Assembly: GCA_031259655.1 (NCBI GenBank)
Contig: JAIRLF010000011.1
Location: forward strand, 1 to 11,857
Length of the DNA: 11,857 bases
Direction: 5' to 3'
Origin: Prevotellaceae bacterium
GTDB lineage: Bacteria; Bacteroidota; Bacteroidia; Bacteroidales; UBA932
In this document: positions 1 through 11,602 of the stretch, in pieces
Position numbering within the stretch: the first letter of the stretch is position 1
How the letters are laid out: every line of letters begins with the position of its first letter
The notes under the pieces: model-generated
What the model saw: the letters and a program-made list of their open reading frames with translations, nothing else
Databases searched by the model: none
Told to the model about the DNA's origin: nothing
Made by a program: the position numbers and the translations under genes

Positions 1-1846
1 TTTTAACTTTAGTAAATTCTCTTGGCGAGAGCCCTGTGATTTGTTTGAAAGAGCGGTAGAACGAAGTCCGGCTTCGAAACCCCACCATTCCGTACAGTTC
101 GTCGATGTACAGATTTTGATGTTTGGAAATAATCCTCAGCGCCTCCTTAATTCGGTACTCGTTGATAAAGTTATTAAAATTTTTTCCTGTCACGGCATTG
201 ATAGCATGAGACAGGTTATTCCGGTTGATGTTTAGTTTTTTAGCGAGAATATCCAGCGTCAATTCGTGACCTTTAAATGCTCCGTCGAGCATAAACTCGT
301 GTACCAGTTTGACGATTTCGTTGTCTTCGTCGGTAGGAACAAGTCTGTCGCTGTCGCTGTCGTCACCGAAATTTTCTTCAGTCCGGTTAATGATTTCGAA
401 ATAATTTTGGTTAGCCCATTGCAGGTTTTTATGAACCAGGTCGTTCAATGTTTGCCGCTTTTGTCTGTAAAAATAGGCGATAACAAATAAAGCAAGCATA
501 ATCAGGATTATAATAGCGAAAGACATTTGCAGCCGGTTTTTCAGTTTTTGTTCCTGTTCGTTTTTCATTGCGATTTCGGCTTCGTGCAGTTCCTGTTCCG
601 CACGAAGGATAATCAGGGAGTTTGTTTTTTTCTCGTGTATGTCATGCGCCCACTGCATGGAGTCGACATATTGATATGCCAGGTCGGTTTGTCCGACGTT
701 CAGGTTATAGCGAAACATCTGTTCGAAGAGTTTCTTTTTTCTGAAATATAAATCCGGATATTGTCTTATCAGGGCATTAACCGAATCAATCATCACTTTG
801 GCTTGCGGGTATTGTTTTTCAGCGAGGTGGCATTCGCATAAAGCGATACAGGCGTCGAATATGCTTTTTCTTAAGCATTCCTTGAATGCTTCGGGCAGCC
901 ATCGTTTCAGTATTGGCATAGCTTTGCGGTGCATATTACGTCTTATCAGGTTGTTTGCGATTCCCACCGCCGCCATGGCATCGTAAGATGGGCGAAAGCG
1001 CACCATGTTAGTATCGTCGTATATCGAACGGTAATAGAAGTCGGACGAATCGAGCTGATTTATTTCGGCGTAATATTCTGCGAGCAGAAACCGCGCCCGC
1101 AAGTCAGACCGGTCGGCAAAGTGCGTTGGCGGAGAGTGCAAGGCTTTTTTCAGGAAAAAAACGGCGCGTTCGTAATCGCGGAAATTGTAGTAATCGCTGC
1201 CGATATGATAGTAAATGTAATGATAATTAATATATTCTTCCGGCGTTATCTGTTTGAGCAAATCGACTATGGGGGGTATATATTTGAACATTTTGGCGTA
1301 GTTGCCGAAATCGCGGTACATGTGATAAGATTCCGCCAGATACTCCAGATACCTTGCTTTGTCGTTTTTGAAAACAAGTCGGTCGATATATTTGTGCATT
1401 TCCTGCACGGCGTTTTCCATTTCTTCCTCCGTCACGCCGCCTCCTGAGAACAGTTTGGAGTAGAACAGCCCGTGTATTTTCATATAATCGGCTTCGTAAT
1501 TCAACAGGGCGGAGTTGTATTTCTTTGCAGCGTCTTTTATTTTGCGATAGCCTTCTTCGACCTGCTTTGCCGAAGCATAATCCAATATTTCCCAGTAATA
1601 GTAATGCACCAGGTCTTCGGTGTAAACGCTACGCCTGTCGGCGACCATGTGATAACAGAGACTGTCCAGATTAAAATACCAGACTTCGTTGTATTTTGCG
1701 ACGACTACGCTGTCGCCGTCCGGCGTTCGCGGATAGTTGAGCGCGCGCATACGCCACGGATATTTCCTTATCTCCAGACCCTCGTGAACCTGTCCATAAC
1801 CGGCAATGTTGCAAATCAACAAAAGTATAGTTATAAAATGTCTCAT
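1..1846 (-). CDS. Membrane-anchored TPR/AraC-type HTH transcriptional regulator (3' end off window)
   Basis: Reading the minus strand from the ATG at 1846-1844 gives at least 615 open codons running off the left edge. Seen: a hydrophobic N-terminus (MRHFITILLLICNIAGYGQ) that looks like a signal peptide; a long helical, Tyr/Ala-rich region (about residues 60-400) resembling degenerate TPR repeats; a charged, probably coiled-coil segment (about 415-440, with EQEQKLKNRLQ); one membrane segment at about 442-462; and an AraC-type HTH at about 528-613 (LDILAKKLNINRNNLSHAIN, then GFRSRTSFYRSFKQITGLSP). HTH_18 domains end shortly after this motif, so only a few residues should be missing. By family, such Bacteroidetes proteins are one-component regulators with a periplasmic sensing part and a cytoplasmic DNA-binding part. 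The ligand and targets are unknown. It is divergent from the CoA transferase, 665 bp away. High confidence in the architecture, none about the signal sensed. Confidence 0.88.
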   Translation of the reverse strand, partial: MRHFITILLLICNIAGYGQVHEGLEIRKYPWRMRALNYPRTPDGDSVVVAKYNEVWYFNLDSLCYHMVADRRSVYTEDLVHYYYWEILDYASAKQVEEGYRKIKDAAKKYNSALLNYEADYMKIHGLFYSKLFSGGGVTEEEMENAVQEMHKYIDRLVFKNDKARYLEYLAESYHMYRDFGNYAKMFKYIPPIVDLLKQITPEEYINYHYIYYHIGSDYYNFRDYERAVFFLKKALHSPPTHFADRSDLRARFLLAEYYAEINQLDSSDFYYRSIYDDTNMVRFRPSYDAMAAVGIANNLIRRNMHRKAMPILKRWLPEAFKECLRKSIFDACIALCECHLAEKQYPQAKVMIDSVNALIRQYPDLYFRKKKLFEQMFRYNLNVGQTDLAYQYVDSMQWAHDIHEKKTNSLIILRAEQELHEAEIAMKNEQEQKLKNRLQMSFAIIILIMLALFVIAYFYRQKRQTLNDLVHKNLQWANQNYFEIINRTEENFGDDSDSDRLVPTDEDNEIVKLVHEFMLDGAFKGHELTLDILAKKLNINRNNLSHAINAVTGKNFNNFINEYRIKEALRIISKHQNLYIDELYGMVGFRSRTSFYRSFKQITGLSPREFTKVK

Positions 1847-1972
1847 ATCAAAAGCGTTCTCAAACCGATTTCCGTCTTGCGGATTCACCTGCCAAAAAGT
1901 TTATCTTTCATCTTTCAACTAAAATTTATGCGCGTAAACTCCATAAGAACGAATATCATATATTTCGCGGCT

Positions 1973-2511: not shown

Positions 2512-3996
2512 ATGAACATGAAATACACATTGATGTCGCCGGAAGAAGCGGCGAGTTTTATAAAAGATGGTGATAATGTAGGATTTAGCGGTTTCACTGC
2601 CGCAGGTTGCCCGAAAGCCGTGTCTATGGCGATAGCAAAGCAGGCAGAAGCAAAACATGCACAAGGCGAGCCTTTTAAGATAGGAATGTACACGGGCGCT
2701 TCGACAGGCGACAGCATCGACGGATATCTGGCGCGCGCAAATGCAATCAAATTCCGCACACCATATCAGTCAAACAAAGATTTGCGACAGGCAATGAACG
2801 ATGGTACAACCAATTATTTCGATTTGCATCTCTCGCATCTCGCTCAAATGCTGCGATACGGTTTTCTCGAAAAAATCAACTTCGCAATAATCGAAGCCGC
2901 TGATATTACCGGCGATGGAGAAATTATCCCGACTTGCGGAGTAGGTATCGCGCCGACAATATGCGAATATGCCGACAAAATCATCGTCGAGCTTAACAGC
3001 TGTCACCCCAAAGAAATCAGAGGAATACATGATATTTACGTTCCACTCGACCCGCCTCTGCGCAGAGAACTGCCGGTATATAAAGTAAACGACCGAATCG
3101 GAACGCCGTATATTAAGGTAGACCCCTCGAAAATTCTGTGCGTGGTCAATACCGACCTCGAAAATGAAGGCGGAGCGTTTACTCCTGTCGATGAGACAAC
3201 GGCGCGTATCGGAGACAATGTTGCCGACTTTTTGGTGAAGGAAATGAGCCTTGGACATATTCCGAAATCGTTTTTGCCGATTCAATCGGGCGTAGGAAAT
3301 ATTGCCAACGCGGTTTTGGGCTCTATGGGCAACAATTCGGCTATTCCCCAATTCGAGGTTTATACCGAAGTGATTCAGGATGCGGTGATTGAGCTGATGC
3401 GAAAAGAACGCGTCAAATTTGCAAGCGGATGTTCGCTCACCGTCAGCAATCCGACTATCAACGAGATATATGGCGATTTGGCGTTTTTCAGAGACAAAAT
3501 ACTCTTGCGTCCGCAGGAATTGTCGAACAATCCGGAAATTATCCGCCGTCTCGGTCTGATAACTATCAACACCGCTTTGGAAGCCGATATTTTCGGAAAT
3601 ATCAATTCGACGCATGTTGTCGGGACAAAAATGATGAACGGAATTGGCGGTTCGGGCGATTTTACCCGTAACGCCTATTTGTCGATATTCACAACTCCCT
3701 CGGTTGCTAAAGGTACTAAAATCAGCGCGATTGTGCCTATGGTCTCGCATCACGACCATACCGAACATTCGGTATCGGTGTTGATTACCGAACAGGGCGT
3801 AGCCGATTTACGGGGAAAATCGCCGATACAACGCGCTAAAGCAATAATAGATAATTGCGTACATCCGGAATACAAACAGTTGTTGTGGGATTATCTGAAA
3901 CTCGGAAAAGGACATACGCCTCACAATCTGAAATCTTGCTTCGCCTTCCATAATGCATTCAACGAAACAGGAGATATGCATAATGCGAAATATTAG
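2512..3996 (+). CDS. Acetyl-CoA hydrolase/transferase family protein (succinate/acetate/propionate CoA-transferase)
   Basis: This 494-residue protein matches the length and motifs of the class I CoA-transferase family that includes Cat1, AarC and YgfH/ScpC. It probably moves CoA between succinyl-CoA (or propionyl-CoA) and acetate or succinate in the cytoplasm. Seen: an N-terminal GFSGFTAAGCPKAV segment (about residues 24-37); the CoA-site motif QSGVGNIANAV (258-268); the expected catalytic glutamate, E286 in YTEVIQD, which in this family forms the glutamyl-CoA intermediate; and EQGVADLRG (427-435) near the C-terminus. No truncation is visible. Start: ATG 2512, with ATG 2518 two codons on equally possible; an upstream ATG at 2494 hits a stop at once. 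It is monocistronic, with its own promoter, and ends facing the rpsU terminator. The exact acyl donor and acceptor cannot be read from sequence; plain acetyl-CoA hydrolase activity is the main alternative. Confidence 0.93.
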   Translation: MNMKYTLMSPEEAASFIKDGDNVGFSGFTAAGCPKAVSMAIAKQAEAKHAQGEPFKIGMYTGASTGDSIDGYLARANAIKFRTPYQSNKDLRQAMNDGTTNYFDLHLSHLAQMLRYGFLEKINFAIIEAADITGDGEIIPTCGVGIAPTICEYADKIIVELNSCHPKEIRGIHDIYVPLDPPLRRELPVYKVNDRIGTPYIKVDPSKILCVVNTDLENEGGAFTPVDETTARIGDNVADFLVKEMSLGHIPKSFLPIQSGVGNIANAVLGSMGNNSAIPQFEVYTEVIQDAVIELMRKERVKFASGCSLTVSNPTINEIYGDLAFFRDKILLRPQELSNNPEIIRRLGLITINTALEADIFGNINSTHVVGTKMMNGIGGSGDFTRNAYLSIFTTPSVAKGTKISAIVPMVSHHDHTEHSVSVLITEQGVADLRGKSPIQRAKAIIDNCVHPEYKQLLWDYLKLGKGHTPHNLKSCFAFHNAFNETGDMHNAKY

Positions 3997-4599: not shown

Positions 4600-6381
4600 A
4601 TGAGACGAGAAATTAAATTTAGTCTTTTGTACAGAGACATGTGGCAATCTTCCGGGAAATATGTACCTCGGGCAGACCAGTTGGAACAAATTGCTCCTGC
4701 GATTGTGGAAATGGGTTGTTTTGCGAGAGTCGAAACGAACGGCGGCGCTTCGGAGCAAGTAAATTTGCTGTACGGCGAAAATCCGAATAATTCCGTCAGG
4801 ACTTTCACTAAACCCTTCAACAAGGCGGGTATTCAAACGCACATGCTCGACAGGGGATTGAACGGTATCAGAATGTATCCTGTGCCTGCCGACGTCAGGA
4901 AGTTGATGTACAAGGTAAAAAAAGCTCAGGGAGTTGATATTACAAGGATTTTCTGCGGATTGAACGACGTGAGAAATATCATCCCTTCGATTGCTTACGC
5001 AAAAGAAGGCGGAATGATTCCTCAAGCTGCCCTGTGTATCACTTACTCGCCTGTACATACGGTTGATTATTACGTAAATATGGCGACAACATTGATTGAA
5101 GCGGGAGCGGAAGAGATTTGCCTGAAAGACATGGCAGGAATCGGACGTCCTCACAGCAACGGACAGATTGTGAAAGGTATAAAGGATAGATATCCGGACG
5201 TGATGGTTCAATATCACGGACATAGCGGTCCGGGCTTTTCTGTCGCATCGATGCTCGAAGTTGCAAAAGCGGGCGTAGATTATATCGATGTGGCGATGGA
5301 ACCGCTTTCGTGGGGCATGATTCATCCCGACGTCATAACTATACAGGCAATGCTCAGGGACGCAGGATTTTCGGTTCCCGACATCAATATGAAAGCGTAT
5401 ATGGAAGCAAATCGCCTTACGCAATCGTTTATTGACGATTTTCTCGGATATTTTATCGACCCCTCGAACAGGATAATGACTTCGTTACTTGTAGGATGCG
5501 GGCTTCCGGGAGGTATGATGGGCTCGATGATGTCCGACTTGAAAGGAATGCACGGAGCAATCAATATGGCGTTGCGCCAGAGCGGGAAACCCGAAGTTTC
5601 GCTAAATAGTCTCGTTGTACAATTGTTTCAGGAAGTCGAATATGTATGGCCCAAACTCGGATATCCTCCATTAGTAACCCCGTTCAGCCAGTATGTTAAA
5701 AACATAGCGTTGATGAACATTTTTTCGATGGCAAAAGGCGAACCCCGTTTTTCGAATATCGACAAAGACAGCATGAACATGATAACCGGCAAAATGGGTA
5801 AACTACCCGGCGAACTTGCTCCCGAAATAATGAAGATTGTCGAAGAAAAAAGTCTGGAATTTTATACCGGCAACCCGCAAGACCCTTATCCCGATGCTTT
5901 AGAGCAATATAAACAGGAAATGAAGGATAATAAATGGGATTTCGGCCCCGACGACGAAGAGTTGTTCGAACTGGCAATGCACGACCGTCAATACAGAGAT
6001 TATAAGTCGGGTATAGCAAAACAGCGATTCGTGCAGGAACTGGAGGCGGCGAAAGAAAAAGCCGGAGCGCCAAAATCAGTTTCGCGTCCGGTTGTGGAAA
6101 TACCTAATTTCGACATCAATCGCGTCCGAGAATTGTATCCCAAAGCACAACCCGTCCAGGCAACCTGCAAAGGAACAGTCATCTGGCAATACGATGTCGA
6201 GGATAAGTCTACCGCCCCCGTAATCGGCGCCGAATTTAAGAAAGGCGACACAATCTGTTTTATTGAAGCATATTACGGCTTGGAACCGGTTAAAGCCCTG
6301 TCCGACGGTAAAATTGTTCAGATAGAAACAAAGCAGGGAACGAAAGTCGAAAAAAATCAGGCGCTTGCGTTTCTGAATTGA
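4600..6381 (+). CDS. Carboxyltransferase of the pyruvate carboxylase B / oxaloacetate decarboxylase alpha type, with a lysine-less biotinyl-like domain
   Basis: This 593-residue protein has an HMGL-like carboxyltransferase barrel (about 1-290), a conserved carboxylase domain (about 290-480), a linker, and a C-terminal biotinyl/lipoyl-like domain (about 525-593). Relatives move CO2 between biotin and pyruvate/oxaloacetate. Seen: RDMWQSS (D13, Q16) in place of RDAHQS, LCLKDMAG-type KDMAG (K176) and HGH (H206, H208). D13, K176, H206 and H208 match in kind and spacing the metal ligands and carbamylated lysine of transcarboxylase 5S. The carrier domain reads FIEAYYGLEPVKA where EAMKM is expected, so tyrosine 559 replaces the biotin-accepting lysine. 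Further divergence: ETNGG (45-49) for EVWGG. Start ATG 4600. The gene is monocistronic, divergent from rpsU. It may use a separate biotin carrier or no longer be biotin-dependent. The fold is sure; the reaction is not. Confidence 0.85.
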   Translation: MRREIKFSLLYRDMWQSSGKYVPRADQLEQIAPAIVEMGCFARVETNGGASEQVNLLYGENPNNSVRTFTKPFNKAGIQTHMLDRGLNGIRMYPVPADVRKLMYKVKKAQGVDITRIFCGLNDVRNIIPSIAYAKEGGMIPQAALCITYSPVHTVDYYVNMATTLIEAGAEEICLKDMAGIGRPHSNGQIVKGIKDRYPDVMVQYHGHSGPGFSVASMLEVAKAGVDYIDVAMEPLSWGMIHPDVITIQAMLRDAGFSVPDINMKAYMEANRLTQSFIDDFLGYFIDPSNRIMTSLLVGCGLPGGMMGSMMSDLKGMHGAINMALRQSGKPEVSLNSLVVQLFQEVEYVWPKLGYPPLVTPFSQYVKNIALMNIFSMAKGEPRFSNIDKDSMNMITGKMGKLPGELAPEIMKIVEEKSLEFYTGNPQDPYPDALEQYKQEMKDNKWDFGPDDEELFELAMHDRQYRDYKSGIAKQRFVQELEAAKEKAGAPKSVSRPVVEIPNFDINRVRELYPKAQPVQATCKGTVIWQYDVEDKSTAPVIGAEFKKGDTICFIEAYYGLEPVKALSDGKIVQIETKQGTKVEKNQALAFLN

Positions 6382-6716: not shown

Positions 6717-7643
6717 ATGAGACTGTCGAAAGAAATTAAAATAGGTATTTATTTCAGTATAACGCTGATAGCTTTAGTGTGGGGCATAAATTTTTTGAAA
6801 GGGAAAGATATTTTTAACAAAGTACAGACACTGTATGCTGTTTACGACGATATCGAAGGGTTGCAAACGACCGCGCAAGTCTCAATAAAAGGGTTGAAAG
6901 TGGGAACAGTCAGCAAGATACGTTTCGACCAGAAGTCCGAAAAGTTCAAAATCGAACTCCAAATCCGGTCGAATTACAGCATTCCCGACAATTCCGTAGC
7001 CTATCTTTATAGCTCTGACATTATGGGAAATAAAGCGATAAAAATAAAGTTCGGCGATTCTCACGAGATGTTGACCGAAAATTCCATAATCAAGACCGGC
7101 ACCGAAGAAGACGCTTTTTCGCTTTTAATGGACGATTTGCCTTCGATAAAAAACAATCTGAACCAAACAATTAAAGATGTTGATTCGGCTTTTAGGAATA
7201 TCAACAGGTTATTTTCGGATGAAAATATCGACAATCTGTCAAAAAGCTTCTCACATCTCGAACGCACAATGCAAAATATTTCCCAACTGTCGGCGACGTT
7301 GAACAAAAACAAACAAAATATAGTGTCGTCGTTAGAAAATATTGATTCCATAACTTCGAATCTGCGGAATAATTCGGCGAATATCAATCATATCATCAAC
7401 AATTTCGTCGAATTGAGCGACTCGTTGAAAACTGTCCGGCTTGCGGAAACAGTCGACGAACTGAAAACCATTATCGACAAAATAAATTCGGGCGACGGCA
7501 ACATCGGCAAACTGATTTACGACGAATCGATATACGATAATCTCACAAACACGTTGAACAGTCTTGACGCTTTGTTATCAGACATTAAAGAAAATCCGAA
7601 ACGCTATATCAATGTTTCGATATTCGGAAAAAAATCTAATTGA
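6717..7643 (+). CDS. MCE/MlaD-family lipid-transport protein
   Basis: This 308-residue protein has a short basic N-terminus, one membrane anchor (about 9-26, IGIYFSITLIALVWGINFLK) and an MCE domain (about 36-114). The family's Gly-Leu ... Val ... Gly-x-x-Val-Gly-x-Val pattern is visible in GLQTTAQVSIKGLKVGTV (48-65). A long Asn/Ser/Ile-rich, probably helical tail follows (about 130-290). By family, anchored MCE proteins form hexameric rings that pass phospholipids across the periplasm with an ABC transporter. No MlaE, MlaF or MlaB gene is next to it, so partners must be elsewhere. It heads a tight cluster, with the next start 5 bp past its stop. Start ATG 6717. Substrate unknown. Confidence 0.9.
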   Translation: MRLSKEIKIGIYFSITLIALVWGINFLKGKDIFNKVQTLYAVYDDIEGLQTTAQVSIKGLKVGTVSKIRFDQKSEKFKIELQIRSNYSIPDNSVAYLYSSDIMGNKAIKIKFGDSHEMLTENSIIKTGTEEDAFSLLMDDLPSIKNNLNQTIKDVDSAFRNINRLFSDENIDNLSKSFSHLERTMQNISQLSATLNKNKQNIVSSLENIDSITSNLRNNSANINHIINNFVELSDSLKTVRLAETVDELKTIIDKINSGDGNIGKLIYDESIYDNLTNTLNSLDALLSDIKENPKRYINVSIFGKKSN

Positions 7644-7648
7644 ATAGA

Positions 7649-8284
7649 ATGATTGCAGTAATTTTTGACATGGATGGGGTTTTGGTAGACAACGCCCATT
7701 TTCACGAACGCGCTTTTGCCGAATACTTCAGTAAATTCGGGACGAAGCTTGCCCCCGAAATGTTCGGCAGAGGAAACGACGAGCTTATGGCAGAACTGTT
7801 TCCAAACGAAAGCAAAGAACGGCATCGCGAACTTGCTGCCGGCAAAGAAGCATATTACCGTCAAATATACGAGCCTCATATCGAACCCGTAGCAGGTTTG
7901 GTCGAACTGCTTCGAGAGTTGAAGACCGACGACAGTATCCGCATAGCAGTAGGTTCGTCGGCGCCTGTAGAAAATATTGATTTTGTGCTGGATAAATTGC
8001 AGATACGGAATTATTTCGATATTGTGGTCGTTGCCGCTATGGTGCAACGGGCAAAACCCGCTCCGGATATTTATCTGAAAGCGGCTGAATTGTTGAACGT
8101 TAAACCCGAAACCTGCTTAGTGTTCGAAGACGCTTTGGCTGGAATATCGGCGGCAAGGTCGGCGGGAATGAAAATCGTAGGAATAGCAACTTCGCTCCCA
8201 AAAGAACGACTGACCGAAACGGACAGGATTATAGACGATTTTACGGAAATAACAGTAGCCGAAATAAAACAGCTTACAGATTGA
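7649..8284 (+). CDS. HAD-superfamily phosphatase, beta-phosphoglucomutase-like
   Basis: The 211-residue protein carries all four HAD motifs: DMDG (D7 nucleophile, D9 acid/base), the GSSAP motif II serine (S103/S104), the lysine of AKPAPDIY (K136) and FEDALAGISAA (E160-D161, Mg binding). A helical cap lies at about 15-80. This is subfamily IA/I-3, which includes beta-phosphoglucomutases and small sugar-phosphate or glycerol-phosphate phosphatases. The sequence does not fix the substrate. The start chosen is ATG 7649; a TTG at 7640 would overlap the MCE stop and adds three residues before the usual N-terminus. It is tightly linked to the MCE gene (5 bp) and the methyltransferase (7 bp), so almost surely cotranscribed. 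Confidence 0.9.
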   Translation: MIAVIFDMDGVLVDNAHFHERAFAEYFSKFGTKLAPEMFGRGNDELMAELFPNESKERHRELAAGKEAYYRQIYEPHIEPVAGLVELLRELKTDDSIRIAVGSSAPVENIDFVLDKLQIRNYFDIVVVAAMVQRAKPAPDIYLKAAELLNVKPETCLVFEDALAGISAARSAGMKIVGIATSLPKERLTETDRIIDDFTEITVAEIKQLTD

Positions 8285-8291
8285 ACTTGTG

Positions 8292-8948
8292 ATGAATACG
8301 AAAGAGTCGTTGATTTTACAGGGACTGAGAGCCATCTTGGTCGAAAGGCTGAAAGAAAAAGGAATACAGGATGTTCGAGTGTTGAACGCTATCGGCAAAA
8401 TTCAACGGCATCTGTTTATCTCAAAAGGTTTCGAAAAACAGGCATACGAAGACAAACCGTTTTCTATCGCCTGTGGACAGACTATTTCTCAACCGTTTAC
8501 GGTCGCAATCCAAACGGAATTGCTGCAAGTGCAACGTTTTGACAAAACGCTCGAAATCGGCACAGGTTCGGGATATCAGGCTGTCGTTTTGGCAGAAATG
8601 GGCGCTAACGTTTATACCATCGAAAGGTTCAGAGAGCTGTATCTCAGTGCGCGCCGTATCTTCCGGCAATTAGGATATTCGATAAACTCTTATTGGGGCG
8701 ACGGTTACGAAGGAAAAGAAAATTTCGCGCCTTTCGAAAAAATACTGATAACGGCGGCTGTTCCTCAGATTCCCCAAACATTATTAGACCAGCTTGCCGT
8801 AGGCGGACGTTTGGTTGCTCCTGTCGGGGAAGGAAGTACGCAAATAATGACAATAGTAGACAAAATCGATGAAAATAATTTTAATACTGCGTACTATCAC
8901 AATCCGTTTCGGTTTGTACCTATGCTGCAAGGAATTTCGGAGAATTGA
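8292..8948 (+). CDS. pcm: Protein-L-isoaspartate O-methyltransferase
   Basis: The 218-residue protein methylates L-isoaspartyl residues from S-adenosylmethionine, starting repair of aged proteins in the cytoplasm. Seen: the N-terminal GIQDVRVLNAIGKIQRHLFI region (family: VP-RHxFV); the substrate-loop motif CGQTISQP (61-68); SAM motif I LEIGTGSGYQA (87-97); and the late motif ILITAAVPQIPQTLLDQL (151-168) followed by GGRLVAPVG. Length is normal and every motif is intact. ATG 8292 is preferred over the GTG directly before it (8289). It is the third gene of the MCE-HAD-pcm cluster. Some bacteria pair pcm with stress genes; no such partner is visible here. Confidence 0.95.
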   Translation: MNTKESLILQGLRAILVERLKEKGIQDVRVLNAIGKIQRHLFISKGFEKQAYEDKPFSIACGQTISQPFTVAIQTELLQVQRFDKTLEIGTGSGYQAVVLAEMGANVYTIERFRELYLSARRIFRQLGYSINSYWGDGYEGKENFAPFEKILITAAVPQIPQTLLDQLAVGGRLVAPVGEGSTQIMTIVDKIDENNFNTAYYHNPFRFVPMLQGISEN

Positions 8949-8973
8949 GACTTCTATTATTTGCCTGTCGGGA

Positions 8974-9017
8974 TGTGATTTTCCTGCAATTGAGATATAT
9001 TAATCATTAAAATCACA
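8974..9017. repeat. Inverted repeat between pcm and the FKBP operon
   Basis: TGTGATTTT (8974-8982) and AAAATCACA (9009-9017) are perfectly complementary over 9 bp around a 26-nt spacer. The loop is too long for a typical terminator. It ends 42 bp upstream of the next -7 box, so it could be an operator or a weak pcm terminator. Confidence 0.4.
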
Positions 9018-9058
9018 GCGGCGACGAATTTTTTTATCACCGGATTAATAAAAATATG

Positions 9059-9066
9059 TATCTTTG
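9059..9066 (+). promoter_or_regulatory. -7 element of the FKBP/lipoprotein operon
   Basis: TATCTTTG, followed by CACG, is the common Bacteroidetes TAnnTTTG form. The expected -33 region is T-rich without TTG. Predicted initiation near 9073 gives an AT-rich leader of about 35 nt. Confidence 0.6.
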
Positions 9067-9108
9067 CACGATTTTTTAATTATATAAATTTTAAATAATA
9101 ACATTTTT

Positions 9109-9816
9109 ATGAAACATCTTATTTATGTATTTACTGTAGTACTATTATTATCCGCGTGTAATGGCGGAAATGTTAAACTGTTGTCCTCATCCAAACCGAT
9201 AGACTCTGTCAGTTATGCGATTGGAATGTTTGAAGCGTATTCCACTCTTGAGCATATTAAGGGAAGCGGACAATCGCTGGAAGGGTTGGATTACGATTAT
9301 CTGGTTGCTGGGTTCAAATCGGTATTGTTGAAAAGCGATTCTATTGACAATGAAAGAAGACAATGGTCTTCGGATGTAATCAACCGGTATATTACGCAAA
9401 AACGACAGGAAGAATTAGAACGGATTAAAACGGAAGATGCCGTTTTCTTGAAAAAAAATGCGGAAAACGACAGTGTAACAGTTCTCCCAAGCGGACTGCA
9501 ATACAAGATTATCGCGGAAGGCACGGGCATTTCTCCTAAAGTTTCGGATACCGTAAACGTTATATACACCGGTACTTTAGCAGACGGAACGACTTTCGAT
9601 TCGTCAAGAGGCGACACAGTGAAAATGCCGCTGTCACGAATGATAAAAGGATGGCAGGAAGGTCTCCCGTTGATGAAAGAAAAAGCAAAATATAAATTTT
9701 ACATACCTTCCGATTTGGCATACGGAGAGTCGGGACGGCTTGCAGGCAGAGTTCTGATTTTCGACGTCGAATTGATAAGCGTAAACAAGGGACCGGCTAC
9801 TAAAGAGAAAAAATAG
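9109..9816 (+). CDS. FKBP-type peptidyl-prolyl cis-trans isomerase, lipoprotein
   Basis: The 235-residue protein begins with a lipoprotein signal (MKHLIYVFTVVLLLSAC; lipidated Cys17). It continues with an FKBP N-terminal helical domain (about 30-120, with DSVSYAIGMFEAY) and ends in an FKBP catalytic domain (about 130-228). It should catalyse proline isomerisation in envelope proteins, probably as a dimer as in Mip/FkpA. Seen: VNVIYTGTLADGTTFDSS (149-166), GWQEGL with W182, AYG with Y205, and LIFDVELI. The loop between AYG and LIFDVEL is only RLAGR-length and lacks the usual IPPN. It is the first gene of an operon, with the next start 4 bp downstream. Start ATG 9109, no SD. Confidence 0.93.
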   Translation: MKHLIYVFTVVLLLSACNGGNVKLLSSSKPIDSVSYAIGMFEAYSTLEHIKGSGQSLEGLDYDYLVAGFKSVLLKSDSIDNERRQWSSDVINRYITQKRQEELERIKTEDAVFLKKNAENDSVTVLPSGLQYKIIAEGTGISPKVSDTVNVIYTGTLADGTTFDSSRGDTVKMPLSRMIKGWQEGLPLMKEKAKYKFYIPSDLAYGESGRLAGRVLIFDVELISVNKGPATKEKK

Positions 9817-9820
9817 GTAA

Positions 9821-11602
9821 TTGTTACAATTGTCGAAAGATAACAAGTTTGTTGCGTTTTTGCTGACTGCAATATCGTTGTATGGTTTATTGACCTCAAT
9901 GATATCGGGTTGCGCCAACTCGTCCGTTGCTCCCACAGGTGGACCAAAGGATACTATCGCTCCCGTACTGTTGAAAATGGAACCTCCGCAACGAACAAGG
10001 GAATTTAAGGGTAAAGAGTTGATTTTCACGTTCAACGAATATGTTCAGCTTAAAGACCAGAACAAGAATTTCGTGATATCGCCTCCTTTACCCTCTAAAA
10101 AACCGGTCTTGAAGATAAAAGGCAAAAGTATCGTTGTTTCTTTTCCTTCAATAGCCGACAGCGTTACTTATTATATTGATTTTGGGGCAAGTGTGGTTGA
10201 TGTGAATGAAAGTAATCCTGCAAGTTATCTCAATTTTATTTTCTCTACAGGCGAGGCGCTCGACACGATGATTTATGTCGGGCATGTGGTGGACGCGCTT
10301 ACTTTAGACCCTGCCAATGCTGTGCATATCTTTTTATATGAGGACAATATCGATTCTTTAGTGTTCAAACGCAATCCTTCGGCACTTTCGATAACGAACA
10401 AAGAAGGCGTCTTCATAGTCAAAGGGTTGAAAAATAAGCGGTACAAAATGGTAGCCGTCGAAGACAAAAACTCGAATATGCGCTATGATGCGGGTATAGA
10501 GCAAATTGCATTCTCCGATTCGCTGATTCAACCTACTCCGTTTTCCGAAAACGATTCTATTTCGTTCTATTCGCTTCCCGTATTCAACTTATTCACCGAA
10601 AACGTTAAGCGACAGGCTTTGATGGAAACCAAACGACCCGAAGAACGTTTGATAAGCCTGCGTTTCAATGAAATCTATCCAGTGATTCAAAGTTTTAGAC
10701 TCGACGACATCCCCCCTGCGAGAATTATCGAAGATGCAAGCGCCCAAAGAGACAGTATCAATTTTTGGATTACTTCGCGGGAAATCAAAGATACGATAAC
10801 CGGCGAGTTGATATACCTGAAAACCGATACTGCAAATAAACTTTCGCCCGATACGGTGAAAATCAAATTGATTCACTCAAAGCCCAAACTCAAACGTAAA
10901 AGCAGGGATAAGGACGATGACGACGAAGAAGAGGATGAGGAGGAAATCATTCCCATAGCGCCGGATATTCACGCTGCTGCTGCAGGCGTTGTGGAAAACG
11001 ACATAACTTTTGTATTCAAAACGCCTCTGCTTCGGGTCGATACTTCCAAAATGCATCTGTCGATATTCGACGATACCGGTAAGGAGAAAATTCCGGTGAA
11101 AGCCATATCGTTTACACAGGATTCGATTCGCGTGACAAATTACAAGTTGTCGGCAAAATGGAAAGTTGCCTCAAAATATGAGTTATCTATCATGCCCGAG
11201 GCTTTTGTCGATGTGTATAGTATAACTAACGATACTGTAACCAAGACGTTTGAAACCGCCGACCCCGAAAAGTTCGGCAAACTGATTCTCGAAATAATCA
11301 ATTCCGAAAATCAGTATATCTTTCAATTGATGAAAGACAAAGACAAAAAAGTTACTCAGGAAAAAATCATGGATGGTAATGGAGAGGTTGTTTTCCAATA
11401 TCTTAACTCCGGAAAATACCGAGTCAGGGTAATCGAAGACCTTAACCGTAACGGCAAATGGGATACCGGAAGTTATTTGGATAAACGACAGGCGGAACGA
11501 GTTCTGTTCCTTGTGTTTTCGACCGGCGAAACTTTACTCGATATAAAAACTAACCGCGAAGACGAACAAACAATCGACGCAAATATGCTGTTCGTGAAAT
11601 GA
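9821..11602 (+). CDS. Large Ig-like-domain lipoprotein (SbsA Ig-like type)
   Basis: With a TTG start at 9821 this is a 593-residue protein. No ATG exists before the lipobox except one four residues from it, so a non-ATG start (9821, or TTG 9830) is needed. Seen: a signal peptide with a lipobox ending ISGC (Cys31); a PTGGPKDTIAPVL segment opening an SbsA-type Ig-like domain (about 41-143); a beta-rich region with a carboxypeptidase-regulatory-like unit (about 150-240); an Asp/Glu run at 363-375; and a C-terminal unit with EDLNRNGKWDTGSY. The latter echoes VEDKNSNMRYDAG earlier, suggesting an internal duplication with calcium-loop-like residues. The family is a conserved Bacteroidetes envelope lipoprotein of unknown role. 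Coupling to the FKBP suggests envelope folding or assembly, which is inference. Confidence 0.82.
   Translation: MLQLSKDNKFVAFLLTAISLYGLLTSMISGCANSSVAPTGGPKDTIAPVLLKMEPPQRTREFKGKELIFTFNEYVQLKDQNKNFVISPPLPSKKPVLKIKGKSIVVSFPSIADSVTYYIDFGASVVDVNESNPASYLNFIFSTGEALDTMIYVGHVVDALTLDPANAVHIFLYEDNIDSLVFKRNPSALSITNKEGVFIVKGLKNKRYKMVAVEDKNSNMRYDAGIEQIAFSDSLIQPTPFSENDSISFYSLPVFNLFTENVKRQALMETKRPEERLISLRFNEIYPVIQSFRLDDIPPARIIEDASAQRDSINFWITSREIKDTITGELIYLKTDTANKLSPDTVKIKLIHSKPKLKRKSRDKDDDDEEEDEEEIIPIAPDIHAAAAGVVENDITFVFKTPLLRVDTSKMHLSIFDDTGKEKIPVKAISFTQDSIRVTNYKLSAKWKVASKYELSIMPEAFVDVYSITNDTVTKTFETADPEKFGKLILEIINSENQYIFQLMKDKDKKVTQEKIMDGNGEVVFQYLNSGKYRVRVIEDLNRNGKWDTGSYLDKRQAERVLFLVFSTGETLLDIKTNREDEQTIDANMLFVK

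Follow-up and report, generated by a model that had tools for sequence, protein, structure and literature searches.

RESULTS

An OadA/5S-type carboxyltransferase without its biotin lysine

The window analyzed here is the whole 11,857-nucleotide stretch of contig JAIRLF010000011.1 from a Prevotellaceae bacterium of the order Bacteroidales (assembly GCA_031259655.1). Its plus strand carries an open reading frame (ORF), containing CFIEAYYGLEPVKAL, for a 593-residue carboxyltransferase of the type found in OadA, the alpha subunit of the Na+ oxaloacetate decarboxylase, and in the 5S subunit of Propionibacterium transcarboxylase. An HMGL-like/carboxyltransferase barrel, a PYC_OADA domain, and a C-terminal biotinyl-like domain follow one another in the protein:

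4600..6381, plus strand: lysine-less OadA/5S-type carboxyltransferase, 593 aa (ORF from ATG to TGA)
4600..5499, plus strand: carboxyltransferase barrel, residues 1-300 (motif alignment)
4633-4648, plus strand: barrel residues R12, D13, and Q16
4852-4854, plus strand: barrel residue R85
5125-5127, plus strand: barrel residue K176
5215-5217 and 5221-5223, plus strand: barrel residues H206 and H208
5620..6045, plus strand: PYC_OADA conserved carboxylase domain (domain search, alignments)
5677-5679, plus strand: T360 of VTPFSQ, aligned with VTPSSQ of 5S
6142..6378, plus strand: degenerate biotinyl domain, residues 515-593 (PF00364 match at 543-590, AlphaFold2, alignment with the biotinyl domain of lysine-bearing OadA)
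6265..6279, plus strand: EAYYG where EAMKM is expected, with the Tyr559 codon at 6274-6276 (sequence, alignments)

An initial annotation, made from the letters of the window, had read EAYYG for EAMKM with a tyrosine at residue 559, in clean codons and in a frame running to a proper end. This reading was correct: the codons at 6265-6279 are GAA GCA TAT TAC GGC, the protein ends in LAFLN-stop, and the Tyr559 column is that of the biotinyl lysine in an alignment with 22 lysine-bearing relatives of the OadB-linked type. The five residues on either side of Tyr559 in the window protein include no lysine; the next one is Lys565. The motif also proved to be conserved among homologues. Tyrosine occupies position 559 in 81 of 81 sequences (the window plus the best 80 of at least 596 genome loci), and it was found in all 113 motifs located by pattern among 121 proteins (the query and the 120 matches listed; 8 motifs were not located). 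The lysine-less state is thus common to all 80 nearest genome loci and not peculiar to the window gene, and the 81 tyrosines exclude in practice a sequencing error at the motif, which the annotation had named as a way to be wrong; we rejected a pseudogene as well. Its other refuting case, a lysine one position away, was seen at position 558 in 2 of the 81 sequences and in the locus L129, for which it stands as a possibility, and was ruled out for the window protein, which has none there. A lysine shifted in this way is poorly biotinylated.

Judging from profile matches, the biotinyl domain of the window protein is recognizable, though weak. PF00364 scored 21.3 bits, just under its cut-off of 22.1 (25.1 bits in a six-frame search), and 44.5 bits on the homologous lysine-less domain of locus L127. 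AlphaFold2 gave block pLDDT values of 82 to 88 over residues 511-593, with 58 at 531-540. Along with Tyr559, residues Gly525, Trp529, Pro540, and Gly570 were invariant in the 81 sequences.

Catalysis looks intact, to judge from the motifs. In a 60-sequence alignment, R12, D13, Q16, R85, K176, H206, and T360 were invariant and H208 was at least 90% conserved. In a multiple alignment with distant OadA/5S-type proteins, R85, K176, H206, H208, and T360 matched in 7 of 7, and R12, D13, and Q16 matched in all 4 that have that end; the motifs concerned are LRDxxQS, RGxN, KDMA, and HxH. Pairwise alignment with 5S agreed for K176, H206, H208, and T360 and placed RGxN two positions off. We take the roles of single residues to be those described for 5S, OadA, and pyruvate carboxylase.

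These observations bear on the idea of a biotin-independent enzyme, such as an aldolase or a simple oxaloacetate decarboxylase, in which the barrel alone is in use and the biotinyl domain is a relic. We think this improbable: the motifs aligned with biotin-dependent carboxyltransferases are kept, Tyr559, Trp529, and the other residues named above do not vary, the divergence ratio between the two domains is nearly the same in lysine-bearing OadA as in the lysine-less proteins (2.08 against 2.39), and the protein co-occurs with MmdA (see below).

The best PDB match by sequence was the transcarboxylase 5S subunit (4.1e-43). The 5S model NF008984 gave 173 bits against a cut-off of 827, so we do not file the protein in the 5S family; the OadA model TIGR01108 gave 225 bits against 756.5, and the biotinyl lysine of OadA is missing as well. 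The 5S-type fold and catalytic motifs are present, and by sequence the biotin attachment residue is absent, as it is from 5S, with tyrosine in 81 of 81 sequences. We infer that the window protein works like 5S, yet it is no assigned member of that family.

A carrier and a candidate partner in the same genome

The initial annotation had suggested that a separate carrier might supply biotin. The genome of the window (408 contigs, 77.7% complete) encodes one. On one strand of contig 177 are methylmalonyl-CoA epimerase, MmdA, an OadG-like protein with a membrane helix, a 149-aa biotin carboxyl carrier protein (BCCP; LEAMKMEN), and OadB, a locus of the Na+-translocating methylmalonyl-CoA decarboxylase (Mmd) type. 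The epimerase and OadB pass their NCBIfam cut-offs. MmdA (814 bits against 998.8) and the BCCP (68.6 against 200) fall below theirs, so the names MmdA and MmdC/BCCP rest on best match and context. The MmdA protein matched the 12S subunit (1on3) at 610 bits. The BCCP has the only AMKM domain among six PF00364 matches in the genome, the window protein is its sole PF02436 protein, and there is one PF01039 protein. Partners of 12S type (MmdA) and 1.3S type (BCCP with EAMKM) are thus both present.

Many records call such proteins pyruvate carboxylase subunit B, which would be partnered by a biotin carboxylase subunit and its carrier. A search for biotin carboxylase (PF02785) gave no match in this 77.7%-complete genome, and a match was absent from 17 of 25 genomes tested that have the lysine-less form, all 93% or more complete. 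We regard the pyruvate carboxylase role as very improbable.

The lysine-less form and MmdA across Bacteroidales

We surveyed 198 Bacteroidales genomes, each at least 90% complete apart from the window's own. A phylum-wide search was kept out of the counts; the window's order was represented there by just three genomes, and a single distant family supplied most of the matches. MmdA was called at an E value of 1e-240 or less, a threshold set after seeing the gap between 4e-241 and 9e-220. Close relatives of the window protein occurred in 68 genomes, 33 with the lysine-less form (six of these also hold a lysine-bearing form) and 35 with lysine-bearing forms only. MmdA was present in 33 of 33 lysine-less genomes, 26 of 35 lysine-bearing-only genomes, and 127 of all 165 other genomes, and none of the 38 genomes without MmdA had the lysine-less form (Fisher P = 0.0006 versus all others and 0.002 within the family, relatedness ignored). 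Because MmdA is found in 160 of the 198 genomes, this co-occurrence by itself is weak evidence. Together with the BCCP of the Mmd locus, it is genome content that supports the annotation's separate-carrier explanation.

A carrier search (PF00364, E value of 0.001) in eight lysine-less genomes listed a single AMKM domain, adjoining mmdA, in five (G409, G303, G230, G310, and G373); G385 and G462 had a second AMKM domain away from mmdA. Two ESMKM domains lie in tandem in one 252-aa carrier frame adjoining mmdA in G332 (L243), and two EAMKT domains lie in the OadA of G344 (L160).

Loss of the pump and shortening of the scaffold

OadB (PF03977) was found in 156 of the 198 genomes, weakly in two, both of which are without MmdA. 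Nine genomes have MmdA and no OadB. Four of them carry lysine-less OadA: G303 (from the window's own family), G310, G414 (a single contig), and G376. Three more (G402, G411, and G431) encode a 563- to 610-aa carboxyltransferase without a biotinyl domain, to which G431 adds a lysine-bearing long form, and G442 has a 5S-like protein with a BCCP match alongside. An OadA/5S relative of any kind was present in 8 of the 9 pump-less versus 66 of the 151 pump-bearing MmdA genomes (Fisher P = 0.012, relatedness ignored). Lysine-less OadA and no OadB match were also seen in Dysgonomonas sp. PH5-45, D. hofstadii DSM 104969, Dysgonomonas sp. Marseille-P4677, OttesenSCG-928-M11, and a Cryptobacteroides metagenome-assembled genome; OadB was found in 4 of the 9 named genomes searched (completeness not given). 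Of these nine, only PH5-45 was covered for mmdA, and the gene was seen there.

These genomes bear on another reading, in which the lysine-less protein is a second alpha subunit of a shared Na+ pump. It would load the carboxyl group of oxaloacetate onto the Mmd BCCP, OadB/MmdB would decarboxylate the carrier, and oxaloacetate decarboxylation would also drive Na+ export. The presence of OadB in the window's own genome and in 29 of the 33 lysine-less genomes fits this, and so does the finding that 21 of the 22 lysine-bearing OadB-linked members have an OadB match within their own fetched stretch. The match is absent, however, from four lysine-less sample genomes and the three named Dysgonomonas, and because several lysine-less genomes are without it, the role cannot be that of the whole family. 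We judge this reading unlikely, though less so than the two alternatives above.

We read ten pump-less Mmd loci and eight in which scaffold and OadB occur together. Eight of the ten (Dysgonomonas PH5-45, G376, G414, G402, G411, G431, G303, and G310) have an OadG-like scaffold gene of 57 to 88 aa with no membrane helix (maximum 19-residue hydropathy, 0.3 to 1.45); neither scaffold nor carrier was found beside mmdA in pump-less G442 and G464. The scaffolds of the eight OadB loci have 114 to 334 aa and a helix (maximum, 2.4 to 3.4), and G373 has a second, short scaffold gene besides the long one. G486 has only a short scaffold (93 aa) by mmdA, and its OadB is on another contig. The part retained in the short forms is the C-terminal one; in the Salmonella pump, according to a passage of one report, the C-terminal tail of gamma holds the alpha subunit (PMC7274780).

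The whole set stands together in G376: lysine-less OadA (L127 6783-8552), MmdA (8623-10182), a 66-aa scaffold, and BCCP (10526-10957), followed by other genes, none of them OadB. No OadB match and no biotin carboxylase match were found in the G376 genome.

Several side observations concern these loci. The carboxyltransferases without a biotinyl domain (L236, L237, and L165, from G402, G411, and G431) co-occur with MmdA, a short scaffold, and BCCP. The 5S-like proteins of L163, L228, and L238 (G422, G351, and G442; 503 to 517 aa, with a BCCP match beside them) have a C-terminal tail that, by eye, resembles the OadG scaffold tail. About 2 kb past the end of the G376 array starts a frame resembling Cas9 by eye (L127:12959-15001).

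Lysine-bearing and long relatives

In a quick tree of 88 rows, whose outgroup branch is very long, the 40 lysine-less proteins did not form one clade; there were 5 changes, at least 3 of them forced by branches starred in the tree. A single loss of the lysine had no support there, and the number and direction of changes read from the tree are provisional. The lysine-less proteins surround the clade of 22 OadB-linked lysine-bearing proteins, which have MK[TV] motifs. They also surround 19 long lysine-bearing proteins (AMKMEN or SMKMEN; 16 of them 718 to 735 aa), with a few lysine-less rows among these.

In the long relatives (L128:4663-10344, G376; L205:5631-11283, G362), the same carboxyltransferase has a biotin carrier fused to its C terminus. 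In L205, free carriers were the top PDB matches of this added part, and Pfam shows only the carrier; its match to human methylcrotonyl-CoA carboxylase (MCC) alpha passes the carrier domain (chain 555-713, E value of 2.9e-8). An mmdA-like gene lies in the fetched stretch for 14 of the 19, and that of L128 matched human MCC beta at 596 bits. Neighbors include enoyl-CoA hydratase genes in both loci, an HMG-CoA lyase-like gene in L128, and an acyl-CoA dehydrogenase in L205, all below NCBIfam cut-offs. Two long-form genomes, G376 and G426, were tested for biotin carboxylase, and neither gave a match. This gene content suggests that the long fused forms are a predicted ATP-free methylcrotonyl-CoA transcarboxylase for leucine breakdown.

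Other features of the window

2512..3996, plus strand: CoA-transferase, succinate/butyryl-CoA:acetate type, upstream of the lysine-less gene (NF053666, 865 bits, cut-off 740; TIGR03458, 755.6, cut-off 658.7; NF053853, 627.7, cut-off 500)
2-1900, minus strand: frame resembling an AraC-type regulator with a sensor part (by eye)
6717-11602, plus strand: MlaD-like protein, HAD hydrolase, PCMT, FKBP isomerase, and Big_5/DUF2141 protein (domain search)

A tRNA search of the window found none.

DISCUSSION

The window enzyme probably transfers carboxyl groups from one fermentation intermediate to another with biotin supplied by a separate carrier protein. More specifically, we favor, with fair but not high confidence, a 5S-like half-enzyme that uses the Mmd carrier in trans as part of a Wood-Werkman-type pyruvate/methylmalonyl-CoA transcarboxylase, a reading that is clearest where the pump is gone. 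The biotin of BCCP would take up a carboxyl group at MmdA, from methylmalonyl-CoA to carboxybiotin, and the same BCCP would then visit the lysine-less protein, where carboxybiotin and pyruvate would give oxaloacetate, or the reverse. Both this visit and pyruvate/oxaloacetate as the substrate are deduced from the family and from genome content. The system would resemble the transcarboxylase (12S, 5S, and 1.3S) while being assembled from parts of an Na+-pumping decarboxylase. In relatives without OadB, transfer to pyruvate would be the plainest way for carboxybiotin to be discharged. The enzyme of the window's own genome could shunt carboxyl groups to pyruvate or feed those of oxaloacetate to the shared pump; because the pump persists there, a transcarboxylase and a second pump input are indistinguishable in that genome.

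Retention of the degenerate biotinyl domain is probably explained by a structural or docking function. The initial annotation had offered a structural or regulatory domain as an alternative to a separate carrier; it is compatible as an addition to it, because the five residues named above are invariant. The "new role" that it had proposed holds in part; the likely role is the known one of 5S, reached separately.

Several observations weigh against the transcarboxylase reading. The case is built on sequence and genome content, with the enzyme activity and the complex predicted, and the protein is far from true 5S (173 versus 827 bits for NF008984). MmdA occurs in 160 of 198 genomes, which are related to one another, and the Fisher test ignores this. 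The names MmdA and MmdC come from best matches and context, and the best PDB matches of the window genome's MmdA are propionyl-CoA carboxylase beta chains, which score higher than 12S. That genome is only 78% complete, the window gene is on contig 31 and the Mmd locus on contig 177, and because OadB and a membrane-anchored scaffold are kept, its Mmd can pump independently of the lysine-less protein. OadB is kept in 29 of 33 lysine-less genomes, a biotin carboxylase match is present in 8 of the 25 tested, and pump-less, MmdA-bearing G464 has no OadA/5S relative at an E value of 1e-15. Of the 31 lysine-less sample loci read, only 1 has the lysine-less gene joined to mmdA, and an Mmd locus is near that gene in 1 of 80 named loci, many of them short (L049, about 5 kb downstream); conserved neighborhood was set aside as a main argument for this reason.

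Taking the two kinds of relatives together, we give about even chances to a broader scenario. Soluble transcarboxylases would have arisen in Bacteroidales separately from that of Propionibacterium, through the dismantling of an Na+-pump decarboxylase: the pyruvate/oxaloacetate subunit lost its biotin lysine and the pump and anchor were lost, leaving a short scaffold peptide together with a single shared carrier. The same subunit family, fused to a carrier-bearing part of MCC alpha so as to replace the biotin carboxylase domain of the latter, would have given an ATP-free methylcrotonyl-CoA transcarboxylase.

A passage of a human gut genome survey reports transcarboxylase only in two actinobacterial genera (PMC9403272), and one on Xylanibacter ruminicola has the pump acting "rather than" transcarboxylase (PMC11575231). 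In open-access literature on transcarboxylase with Dysgonomonas or Bacteroidales and on lysine-less biotinyl domains, the titles, abstracts, or passages do not describe the system (including PMC10730194, PMC3199775, PMC8100219, PMC11238397, PMC12346497, PMC7274780, and PMC7768429). As far as these parts of the sources go, we found no account of a Bacteroidales OadA that lacks the lysine, retains the biotinyl domain, and is linked to the Mmd carrier, nor of pump-less Mmd loci with soluble scaffolds; both are apparently undescribed.

If our reading is true, Bacteroidales proteins annotated as "oxaloacetate decarboxylase" or "pyruvate carboxylase subunit B" may carry out neither activity by themselves and may instead link propionate and pyruvate metabolism by ATP-free carboxyl transfer. 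The energy accounting of propionate fermentation would then have to be revised for these bacteria, and the family would show how an ion pump can become a soluble enzyme.

Four known systems offer themselves for comparison. Unlike OadA of the Na+ oxaloacetate decarboxylase (TIGR01108; PDB 2nx9), the window protein has no biotin lysine and no adjacent OadB. Unlike the beta subunit of two-subunit pyruvate carboxylase (PDB 5ks8), it has no lysine, and no biotin carboxylase partner was found in its genome. The Na+-translocating methylmalonyl-CoA decarboxylase (MmdABCD) is the proposed source of the shared carrier, with MmdA in all 33 lysine-less genomes, whereas pump and membrane anchor are missing from several genomes with the lysine-less protein; to our knowledge, Mmd itself has no OadA-type subunit. 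5S subunits that lack the lysine and have a separate carrier are already known. However, the 5S subunit of Propionibacterium (PDB 1rqb) is only 26% identical to the window protein, which retains a degenerate biotinyl domain, whose gene seldom adjoins those for MmdA and the carrier, and whose relatives mostly live in genomes where Na+ pump parts persist. The G376 locus has the parts list of the Propionibacterium transcarboxylase (5S, 12S, and 1.3S) plus one small extra peptide.
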